From NCBI GenBank assembly GCA_021787845.1, contig JAJYLH010000005.1, forward strand, positions 1 to 64,000: DNA of 64,000 nucleotides, written 5' to 3'. Both the position numbers and the translations under genes were made by a program. This stretch comes from Myxococcales bacterium. Lineage in GTDB: Bacteria; Myxococcota; Myxococcia; Myxococcales; JAJYLH01. Below the pieces are notes generated by a model, which worked only from the letters and a program-made list of their open reading frames with translations, made no database searches and was not told the DNA's origin. Positions 12,541 through 39,777 of this stretch are shown here, in pieces (position 1 is the first letter of the stretch; each line of letters begins with the position of its first letter).

Positions 12541-12587
12541 GTCCGATCCGACCGATCGGACCGATCGGTCGGATCGGACTGATCGGT
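12541..12587. repeat. GATCGGACC hairpin repeat (family B), locus 1
   Basis: Runs of ATCGGACCG and its complement form a hairpin. It starts 25 nt after the lipoprotein stop, between convergent genes, where a bidirectional terminator would be expected. Confidence 0.8.
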
Positions 12588-32080: not shown

Positions 32081-33034
32081 TCACCCGTGCGCGCGCTTCT
32101 TGCGGGGGGCAGGAGCGCCACCCTTGGGCGGCGGTCCCTTCTTGCCGGGCTTCGCCTTCTCCGGCGGCGGCTCGCTCTCGGTCGCGGCGGCGGCGGTGGC
32201 CGGCGCGGGCTTCGCCTCCGCCGTCTCGCTCTCCTTCGCCGCCTCCTCGGGAGTGCTGCCGCTCTCCGGCGCCGCTTCCTCCTCCTTGGCCTTCTTCCCC
32301 TTGCCCTTCTTCCCCCGCTTCGCCTGCTCCTGCGCCGGCGGGTTGTCGCCCGGCGGCTGCTTCTTCGCCTGGTGCTTCACCGCCGGCTCGACGAGCGCCG
32401 GCGCGGGCGCGAAGACCGCTTCCATCGTCTCCGGCGCGTCGAACCACGCGACGCCCGCCTCGAGCTTGAAGAGATCCAGCGCCCGCTGCCACGTCGGCAG
32501 ATAGGCGTCGCGCTTCTTCATCGCCTGCTGGAACTTCGTCTGCGCGCGCGAGTAGCCGGCGAGCGCCGTGGCCAGCGCGGCGATCGCTTTCTTCAACGCG
32601 TCGACCTGCGGCTTGACCTGCCGCACGTTGCGCATCTTGGCGAGCACCTGAGGGATGACGACGCTCATGCGCCCGTACTTGAGCTTCTTGAGCGCGGTGA
32701 CGGAGAGGTTGGTGTACGTCTTGAGCGGCGCGGTGCGCGTGCCGAGCCCGGCGGTGACGGCGGCGACCGCGAGGGCGTCGATTCCGTTCGCGACCGCGGT
32801 CGCGGCGGAGCTCACCCCCTGGAGGGATTCATCGCGCGTCAGTCGCGCCGCGTCGGCGGCATCGCAGAGCGCCCCATAGGCGAGGTGCGTCGCGAGAAAA
32901 GCGGCGACCGCGGGCTTGAGCCCCGACGGCACCTGGATCACCTCCCCGGGAGGAATCCCCGTGTCGAGCTCACCGAGGCGACCGAGAATGGCGTTGCCGT
33001 ACTCGCGATGGTTGCGGGTGTACTTGGCTTTCAT
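32081..33034 (-). CDS. Hypothetical protein with Lys/Glu/Ala-rich tail
   Basis: 317 residues from MKAKYTRNHREYGNAI; GGAG lies 6 nt ahead. Residues 1-195 are mostly helical (LKPAVAAFLATHLAYGALCD, VDALKKAIAALATALAGYSR). The C-terminal 115 residues are charged low-complexity sequence (KKQPPGDNPP, KRGKKGKGKKAKEEE, KPGKKGPPPKGG), probably disordered and able to bind nucleic acid or polyanions. A longer frame to 33490 would include the 42-bp array as 14-residue repeats; this is rejected because the Shine-Dalgarno and normal composition start here. No family is recognised. Confidence 0.65.
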   Translation of the reverse strand: MKAKYTRNHREYGNAILGRLGELDTGIPPGEVIQVPSGLKPAVAAFLATHLAYGALCDAADAARLTRDESLQGVSSAATAVANGIDALAVAAVTAGLGTRTAPLKTYTNLSVTALKKLKYGRMSVVIPQVLAKMRNVRQVKPQVDALKKAIAALATALAGYSRAQTKFQQAMKKRDAYLPTWQRALDLFKLEAGVAWFDAPETMEAVFAPAPALVEPAVKHQAKKQPPGDNPPAQEQAKRGKKGKGKKAKEEEAAPESGSTPEEAAKESETAEAKPAPATAAAATESEPPPEKAKPGKKGPPPKGGAPAPRKKRAHG

Positions 33035-33165: not shown

Positions 33166-33479
33166 CTTCCGCCACGCGTGCAACGCCAGGTCCGGACCGA
33201 AGACCTGCCTCCGCCACGCGTGCAACGCCAGGTCCGGACGGAAGACCTGCCTCCGCCACGCGTGCAACGCCAGGTCCGGACGGAAGACCTGCCTCCGCCA
33301 CGCGTGCAACGCCAGGTCCGGACCGAAGACCTGCCTCCGCCACGCGTGCGGTGCCAGGTCCGGACGGAAGACCTGCCTCCGCCACGCGTGCAATGCCAGG
33401 TCCGGACCGAGGACCTGCCTCCCCACCGCGTGGGATCCCAGGTTCCGACCGAGAACCTGCCTGCGCTCGGCGAGCAACG
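33166..33479. repeat. 42-bp tandem array with covarying hairpins
   Basis: Seven contiguous 42-bp units (33166-33459) and a partial eighth. Each unit holds CACGCGTG (perfect palindrome) and a second stem CAGGTC...GACCTG with a 9-nt loop. In unit 7 the first stem is CCCAC/GTGGG and the second CAGGTT/AACCTG; in unit 8 the first is GCTC/GAGC. Both sides of the stems change together. It is in the divergent region between genes starting at 33034 (minus) and 33764 (plus). No spacers separate the units, so this is not a CRISPR array. Confidence 0.9.
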
Positions 33480-33507
33480 GCCCCCTTCATCCTGCCGCGC
33501 CTCCCGC

Positions 33508-33547
33508 CGATCGGACCGATCGGTCGGATCGGTCCGATCGGTCCGAT
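33508..33547. repeat. GATCGGACC hairpin repeat (family B), locus 7
   Basis: Same blocks as the others (CCGATCGGACCGATCGGTCG). This is the only one of the twelve copies that is not just downstream of a stop codon; it lies between divergent genes. Confidence 0.8.
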
Positions 33548-33763: not shown

Positions 33764-35083
33764 GTGGCGCACGACGAACATTTCCTGTCTCGGCTGTCTC
33801 GCGTCGACGACGCGCGGGTCGAGCTGGCGATGTCGCTCTACCACGACCCGGGGCTGGTGCGGGCGGTGCTCGAGCGGTCGGAGCTTCCCCCCGGCGCGGA
33901 ACGGTGCGCCTTGGCGCTCGGTCCCGAAGACCGCGGGCCGTACGTGGTGCTCGCCCGCAGCGGACACTTCGTCACCTGCCTCGGCGAAGGGATGCGCACC
34001 AGCGATCTGCCGATCATCAGCCTGGCCAAGCTCGAGTCGATAGCCACCCGCGTCGAGACCCTGCGCGAGCGGATGGAAATCGCCAAGCGCACCGCTCCCG
34101 ACCAGTCCCACGAAGCCCGGCTCGTGCATCGCATCACGACCGCCGGCCCGGCCTGGTCGCGCGAGGAGTTCATCACCGCCTTGACCTGGATGCCGGTGGT
34201 GGCGAGCGCCTGGTACAAGAGGTTCATCGAGTACGTTCGAACGGTGGACAAGGGGCTGCCCACCCTCGCACGCGGCGATGGACCGCTGGGTTTGCGGGAG
34301 GGTCTCGCGAAGGTCGTGGCGGAGGCGGCCTGGGGTCTCCTGCACCTCGGGACCTTGCTCTTCGCCGATGAGCGCGTGATGAAGACAACGCTCGCGGATT
34401 CCGGCGCTCGCGCCTGGGCAGTGGCGCTGGCGACGATTCCTTTCGATCATTTCGAGCACTCCGGGGGAGCGATCCGGTTCATCCACGGGTTGGCGCGCAT
34501 CGGTCGACCCATGGCCGACCTGTTCAAGAGCTCCGGCGACGAGCCGAGCCGATGGCTGGTGCTCCAGGGCGTAGCTCGCGCCTTCCCCGAGCTGGAGACG
34601 GAGCTGCTCGATCTTCTGGATCGCGAGGCGCCGGACCAGCCCAAGCATCGAGGCTATGACGTCGTGGTGGAATCCGCGATCTCCCTCGGTCGGACCGTGG
34701 CGACCAGACGGCTGGTCGACGCCCACTACGAGCCGCTCTTCCCGAACGCCGAAGATGTTCCAGAGGAACTGGCGGTTCCGATGCTCGCATCGCTCGACCT
34801 CGGCGTGGACGCCCATAACCTGGTCTCGTACATCCTCTTCCCGATGATTGCCGCCGCCAGAGGACCGGCGGAGAAGCTGTATCTGCCCGCGGAATACGCG
34901 AAGCACCTGTGGGCTCCGTCGCTCACGACGACGGGACTGTCCCTCGCCGAGCGCTGGCGCAAACGTTTCGTCACTCGCGAGCCCGCTCAGCGCAAGGACG
35001 AGCCCGGCCGCAACGCCCCCTGCCCCTGCGGGAGCGGCAAGAAGTACAAGAAATGCTGCGCCGGGAAGACCCCGCCCGGGTGA
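33764..35083 (+). CDS. Hypothetical protein with C-terminal SEC-C zinc motif
   Basis: 439 residues from the GTG at 33764 (another in-frame GTG is at 33746). The C-terminus RNAPCPCGSGKKYKKCC is a SEC-C domain: CxC followed by CC binding one zinc, as at the end of SecA, often used to bind SecB or ribosomes. The rest is helical, HEAT-like in character (WGLLHLGTLLFADERVM..., VESAISLGRTVATRRLVDA), and unassigned. TGCTATTCT, an extended -10, lies 8 nt before the GTG with no Shine-Dalgarno, which suggests a leaderless message. Confidence 0.75.
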   Translation: MAHDEHFLSRLSRVDDARVELAMSLYHDPGLVRAVLERSELPPGAERCALALGPEDRGPYVVLARSGHFVTCLGEGMRTSDLPIISLAKLESIATRVETLRERMEIAKRTAPDQSHEARLVHRITTAGPAWSREEFITALTWMPVVASAWYKRFIEYVRTVDKGLPTLARGDGPLGLREGLAKVVAEAAWGLLHLGTLLFADERVMKTTLADSGARAWAVALATIPFDHFEHSGGAIRFIHGLARIGRPMADLFKSSGDEPSRWLVLQGVARAFPELETELLDLLDREAPDQPKHRGYDVVVESAISLGRTVATRRLVDAHYEPLFPNAEDVPEELAVPMLASLDLGVDAHNLVSYILFPMIAAARGPAEKLYLPAEYAKHLWAPSLTTTGLSLAERWRKRFVTREPAQRKDEPGRNAPCPCGSGKKYKKCCAGKTPPG

Positions 35084-36394: not shown

Positions 36395-36558
36395 TGGCGG
36401 CTCATGCCTCCGTCACGCCCGCGCAATGGATGGGCCAATAGCCAGTAGGATGGACAGTCCCGGCGAGCGCGTCTGTTCGCGCTCGGCGGGCTGTCCGTCC
36501 GCGAGCGATCGCACCGGCGCCCGTCCGGGACCCGAATGCTCTGGAAGGACGGGCAGCC

Positions 36559-36904
36559 GGGAATCGCGTTGCGATTCCGCGGACTGCCCATCCCACTGCC
36601 GGGAATCGCGTTGCGATTCCGCGGACTGCCCATCCCACTGCCGGGAATCGCGTTGCGACTCCGCGGACTGCCCATCCCACTGCCGGGAATCGCGTTGCGA
36701 CTCCGCGGACTGCCCATCCCACTGCCGGGAATCGCGTTGCGACTCCGCGGACTGCCCATCCCACTGCCGGGAATCGCGTTGCGATTCCGCGGACTGCCCA
36801 TCCCACTGCCGGGAATCGCGTTGCGATTCCCCGGACTGCCCATCCCACTGCCGGGAATCGCGTTGCGATTCCCCGGACTGCCCATCCCACTGCCGGGAAT
36901 CGCG
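36559..36904. repeat. 42-bp tandem array with palindromic core
   Basis: Eight contiguous 42-bp units starting at 36559 and every 42 nt to 36853, then a 10-nt partial. Each unit begins GGAATCGCGTTGCGATTCC, a 3-nt loop between 8-bp arms, then GCGGACTGCCCATCCCACTG. Units 3-5 read GCGACTCC in the right arm, which leaves a G-U pair if the minus strand is transcribed; units 7-8 carry CCCC in place of CCGC. It lies upstream of the histidine kinase. Confidence 0.92.
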
Positions 36905-39499: not shown

Positions 39500-39648
39500 C
39501 GGGCGCAAGCTCCTCGCGCGGGAAAACGGCCGGCGCGGCGCCGCCCATCCCGAGCCGGCGGAGCATAGTCCGTACCGCGACCGCGAGGGAGCGACTCGCG
39601 TTGGGACGGTCCCCGGGAGAGGGTGTCGCCTTCGTTCAGTTTGTTCCC

Positions 39649-39777
39649 CGCTCATCCTGAGGGGAGCGAGCGTTCTTTGCGAGCGGACGACCGCTCATCC
39701 TGAGGGGAGCGAGCGCTCTTTGCGAGCGGACGACCGCTCATCCTGAGGGGAGCGAGCGCTCTTTGCGAGCGGACTCG
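39649..39777. repeat. 43-bp tandem repeat, three copies (family D related)
   Basis: GCTCATCCTGAGGGGAGCGA and the rest of the unit repeat exactly three times with a period of 43 (starts at 39650, 39693, 39736). A family D-type inverted arm follows around 39780-39860. It lies between the divergent hemB and the hypothetical gene starting at 39940. Confidence 0.85.

Follow-up and report, generated by a model that had tools for sequence, protein, structure and literature searches.

The 64,000-nucleotide stretch of DNA analysed here (the window) carries, in an intergenic gap, an array of 42-bp tandem repeats whose minus strand is likely, though not proven, to fold strand-specifically into a string of hairpins. 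We conclude that this is probably a species-specific array resembling mobile repeats, which may be transcribed, and not a protein gene. The account that we prefer, at a little less than even confidence, is that of a species-restricted family of intergenic minisatellites (21 units with stem B in three arrays), in which the minus strand is constrained to fold as a hairpin string and is most likely transcribed.

Table 1. Arrays, their parts and the flanking genes. Positions without a prefix are those of the window.
Feature	Position	Strand	Remarks
Window array, full 42-bp units (n = 7)	33166..33459	-	Minus strand matches the conserved two-hairpin fold
Window array, partial unit 8	33460..33479	-	First-hairpin half only; 3 of 4 minus-strand helix A pairs kept
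Hairpin B, example from unit 2	33229..33249	-	7-bp stem, 7-nt loop; minus-strand columns 1-7/15-21
Hairpin A, example from unit 2	33211..33225	-	4-bp stem, 7-nt loop; minus-strand columns 25-28/36-39
24-bp tail CCTGCCGCGCCTCCCGCCGATCGG	33491..33514		Identical copy adjoins the C74 array
GATCGG-type 9-bp array	33507..33547		Separate high-copy intergenic repeat of the genome
C74 array	C74:71814-72209		Nine full units
C24 array	C24:22001-22220		Five units with edges
Flanking gene, no Pfam family	32081..33034	-	Likely start at 33034; array lies upstream of and outside the gene
Flanking gene with SEC-C motif	33764..35083	+	In head-to-head orientation to the array's folding strand

TRF, run on the 64-kb window, reported a 42-bp repeat of 7.1 copies at 33168-33466 (score 463), and a unit-by-unit split gave the seven full units and partial eighth unit at 33166-33479 that the initial annotation had described. 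Its reading of the letters was also correct: we found CACGCGTG in units 1-6, CCCAC/GTGGG and CAGGTT/AACCTG in unit 7 and GCTC/GAGC as the first stem of partial unit 8, and the array does occupy the divergent gap between the two flanking genes. Inside the window array, one or two events, in unit 7 and partial unit 8, account for the paired changes. Its layout is not that of a CRISPR, as the whole unit recurs spacer-free and not as identical repeats with unique spacers.

Two more intergenic arrays in this genome are built from the same unit, giving three in total. A pattern search for stem B returned exactly 21 units, all within these arrays, and a covariance model found no convincing isolated 42-bp unit in the genome. 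Comparable arrays were found neither by blastn in 59 relatives nor by pattern search in 144 genomes of the order and 194 of the phylum, a set that includes no other species of the host's family. In line with this, a covariance-model search of related genomes (195 Myxococcota), a check named in the initial annotation, gave no comparable array outside this genome; ten other genomes gave weak single sites (E about 1e-4 to 1e-3), and we do not regard these as relatives, the nine of the ten that were inspected having no tandem copies of the unit. Plasmids and phages gave no match either, one genome collection yielded no similar array, and three viral pattern matches were single sites without an array; a plasmid or phage origin was rejected. 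A Phycisphaerae MAG contains one exact 26-mer, which has no surrounding array and no other exact copy and is probably due to chance. As far as sampled, the array appears to be species-restricted.

Two of the arrays share more than the unit. The order of unit types is common to the window and C74 arrays, with type d last at the same end, and the 24-bp tail was found nowhere else in the genome with up to three mismatches. Because both the unit order and the exact tail are shared, the array and its tail were most likely copied as one cassette between these two loci. No leader is common to the three arrays, and terminal inverted repeats were not seen. Growth and shrinkage of the arrays may have occurred by unequal exchange or slippage.

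The initial annotation had drawn two hairpins on the plus strand and proposed that compensatory changes keep them. Twenty units from the three arrays align gap-free, and in this alignment five pairs of stem B on the plus strand are invariant and one (27-37) varies, being C-G in 6 units, T-A in 7 and a C.A mismatch in the remaining 7. Of the seven distinct cores, five retain the first palindrome, an excess over column shuffles (p 0.00025); it is missing from the other two, GCGACGTTTGC and CCACCGCACGG, and three units of the C74 array have lost it. The covariation term of RNAalifold on the plus strand was only -0.26. The idea of a nucleic-acid structure is supported by our data, whereas the plus-strand stems as drawn fail in the sister arrays and were rejected.

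On the minus strand, the consensus is (((((((.......)))))))...((((.......))))..., which comprises 11 pairs in two hairpins. When the three arrays were pooled, these pairs were formed in all 187 cells of the 17 distinct units with G.U allowed, compared to 77.5% for the same columns read on the plus strand. The first stem differs from the one initially drawn and lies in columns 25-28/36-39 of alignment A2, around a 7-nt loop. Five minus-strand pairs are variable, and every change keeps Watson-Crick or G.U pairing. Pair 6-16 occurs as U-A, C-G and U.G and never as C.A, which is the expected wobble path; pairs 7-15, 25-39 and 26-38 occur as U.G and C-G, and pair 27-37 as G-C and C-G. Both variable pairs of hairpin B (C-G, U-A, U.G) remain paired in all units. 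Linkers and loops vary freely, whereas the helix changes in the pooled units all keep the minus-strand pairs. Every 42 nt of the minus strand would accordingly form a 7-bp hairpin with a 7-nt loop and a 4-bp hairpin with a 7-nt loop, with linkers of 3 nt.

The covariation score of the minus strand exceeded those of all 500 shuffles. Measured against column shuffles, RNAalifold on the pooled units gave z -4.3 to -4.5 for the minus strand and -2.0 for the plus strand, and one of 3000 column shuffles reached the minus-strand value on either strand. When fully paired helices with loops of 3-9 were enumerated separately, the 11 pairs were returned, compared to a shuffle mean of 0.3, and none of 5000 shuffles reached 11. 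This minus-strand fold was also recovered, unchanged or nearly so, from each array by itself. The whole array also folded better than dinucleotide shuffles on both strands (RNA: minus z -4.45, plus z -2.69; ssDNA: plus z -3.37), a measure that is inflated by repeats.

The strand asymmetry bears on a reading as double-stranded protein-binding array, in which each unit would carry two dyad sites, about 21 bp or two helical turns apart, for a dimeric DNA-binding protein. The palindrome centres are indeed about 21 bp apart within a period of 42 bp, and the inverted symmetry of the first-palindrome cores fits such sites. However, C.A is common in the dyad and T.G was never seen, an asymmetry for which a double-stranded site gives no reason; moreover, the dyad is lost in two of the seven cores, and the orientation of the array relative to the neighbour genes varies. 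We regard this reading as unlikely. As a double-stranded site would not distinguish G.T from A.C, a folded single strand is favoured, either RNA or ssDNA of the kind known from REP/IS200-type systems (PMC8266576).

The signal comes from the pooled units. For each array taken alone, the minus-strand z was -0.60 (window), -1.80 (C74) and -1.41 (C24), and on the window's eight units RNAalifold, likewise named as a check in the initial annotation, detected no significant conserved structure on either strand (plus z -0.12). With eight non-redundant units, z was only -2.35, a value reached by 18 of 1000 shuffles. Single 42-nt units of the minus strand folded no better than shuffles. The independent changes are few, and the units are related to one another. 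In addition, a control array of 21-bp repeats (C74:88083-88714), treated as 42-mers, reached a minus-strand z of -3.77 with negligible energy, so that z-scores of this kind can arise otherwise. The earlier proposal that selection or a copying process acts on nucleic-acid structure is supported, but the evidence lies in the pooled arrays and not in the eight units of the window on which it was based.

Minisatellites in bacteria are as a rule regarded as neutral sequence or as binding sites. A neutral origin would involve tandem duplication of chance inverted repeats; quasipalindrome template switching or chance would have produced the paired changes, and unequal exchange would have spread them. 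The restriction to one species, as far as sampled, would fit this, as would the few independent events, the lack of signal in the window array alone and the presence of other intergenic arrays without a conserved fold in this genome, the array survey of which was run on stretches of sequence. It does not explain why the helix changes all preserve pairing on the minus strand, given the free variation of linkers and loops, and we consider it improbable, slightly more so than the binding-site reading.

Since the unit length is a multiple of three and both strands contain open frames, the array could be taken for a translated repeat of the 32081 gene or of another frame. We observed 4-7 synonymous changes in the six frames, compared to 3.9-5.9 expected. 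The absence of synonymous bias in any frame agrees with the initial view that a protein does not explain the changes. The ATG at 33034 is preceded by a ribosome-binding-like GGAG (the start was judged by reading), and since the gene most likely starts there, the open frame through the array is no evidence of translation. Furthermore, the ATG before the window array is absent from the homologous C74 tail, and the strand of the neighbour gene differs between loci. A protein repeat was rejected; its probability is negligible.

At all three loci, the 5′ end of the array, taken on its folding strand, has the start of a divergent gene about 120-285 bp away. The genes facing this end are the SEC-C gene, a DAHP synthase gene and a gene without family. 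Because this end lies opposite a gene start at each locus, a divergent transcript is possible. We envisage as the most likely step that the gap which the array shares with its divergent neighbour gene gives rise to a transcript of the minus strand, which may act, or be tolerated, as a multi-hairpin RNA. Consensus scans, which say little at 70% GC, gave no promoter-like sites for a minus-strand transcript of the window array, and no suitable terminator-like sites were found. Rfam detected only tRNAs in the window and no match over the gathering score for the C74 array; a known RNA family was rejected. A stronger version of the RNA reading, in which the arrays represent a lineage-specific class of multi-hairpin RNA made of tandem 42-nt units, transcribed divergently from their neighbours, selected for G.U-tolerant pairing and copied as whole arrays between intergenic sites, is speculative and in our view doubtful.

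The main alternative for the same data is folding as ssDNA during copying. The array would then be a REP-like set of hairpins whose minus strand folds during replication or excision and which has no RNA function; a Y1 transposase (RAYT) or replication slippage would have moved or amplified it. Folded single strands tolerate G.T, and the array was seemingly copied together with its tail. Transposases acting on ssDNA use one strand only (PMC8266576), and REPs are known to cluster in tandem and to have G-T pairs in their stems (PMC3733652). The genome also has a RAYT gene flanked by GTAG-tagged REPs, and a 42-bp REP expansion lies 3 kb away at 36556-36904. On the other hand, the unit lacks the tag: hairpin B is preceded by GGAGG on the minus strand, the units contain no GTAG, and CGTC is not at the foot. 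Dispersed copies are also absent, all stem-B units being in the arrays, and neither of the two Y1_Tnp matches in the genome (C24:50422 and C84:47305) adjoins any of the three arrays. We give this alternative a modest chance, below our preferred reading of a minus strand that folds and is most likely transcribed.

Several other repeats were seen in this genome. The array at 36556-36904 (8.3 units of 42 bp, 99% identical) belongs to a separate family from that at 33166-33479 and consists of a REP hairpin (GCCGGGAATCGCGTTGCGATTCC...GGACTGCCCATCC) expanded in tandem; this hairpin also occurs, GTAG-tagged, beside the RAYT gene at C24:50422. The region C24:49950-50850 holds this RAYT-like Y1_Tnp gene with long GTAG-tagged hairpin repeats on both sides, a typical REPtron layout in a myxobacterium. 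At L005:1608-1844, an array of the GTAG-REP family (87 bp x 2.7) directly adjoins the C24 copy of the 42-bp array. The mostly intergenic 9-bp GATCGG-NNN arrays are located at 12543, 18018, 21194, 23516, 29360, 31991, 33507, 38438, 41487, 42596 and 50164; a three-unit pattern matched 22 times in the window with 0 expected, and 50 loci were counted in 841 kb of this genome (59 per Mb), compared to 2 in 400 kb of a relative. An intergenic palindrome-bearing repeat (43 bp x 3, around CTCATCCTGAGGGGAGCGAGCG) lies at 39648-39774. Elsewhere, C74:88062-88714 contains 31 units with a common core GCGCAG at strict 21-bp spacing (first step 23) over 650 bp, and C128:204653-205040 contains ten units exactly 41 bp apart, a period not divisible by three; these carry an imperfect CGAAAA...TTTTCG hairpin, and their minus strand folds slightly better.

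Sponge RNAs of the CsrB/RsmZ type consist of a string of hairpins with a repeated GGA motif, and the minus strand of the 42-bp array resembles them in its hairpin string and repeated GGA/GGAGG. CsrA (PF02599) was not found in this genome, which is 98% complete, while control genomes gave matches; because of this absence, the sponge idea drawn from the repeated GGAGG was rejected. Borg tandem repeats are likewise lineage-specific intergenic arrays and have been proposed as regulatory RNA (PMC9879509); their units are perfect copies, whereas those described here have diverged with pair-keeping changes. The array shares with REP/REPIN clusters and their RAYT short intergenic palindromic hairpins (20-40 nt), G.T in stems, tandem clustering and strand-specific folding (PMC3733652, PMC8266576). 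The genome's own GTAG REP family differs in sequence from the 42-bp unit, and membership in a RAYT-driven REP family was rejected, as tag and linkage are absent.

Which strand folds is indicated by the direction of the wobble states, and for a repeat that has no relatives this yields a prediction that can be tested, namely minus-strand RNA or ssDNA hairpins. If transcription is confirmed, the array would represent a short repeat turning into a structured RNA within one lineage. Its closest precedents are species-restricted intergenic minisatellites of the BrickBuilt type, which come nearest, and REP clusters. BrickBuilt of Porphyromonas gingivalis is a species-restricted intergenic minisatellite-MITE with leader and tail, some copies of which are transcribed (PMC4596501). 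Similar to BrickBuilt, the units described here are spacer-free tandem direct repeats in intergenic regions at several loci of one species, without matches outside it, and have predicted hairpins and, at two of the three arrays, a conserved tail beside the repeats (PMC4596501). In contrast to BrickBuilt, the element described here is built of a 42-bp unit with two hairpins and has only three copies, no terminal inverted repeats were found, and its pair-preserving variation favours one strand.
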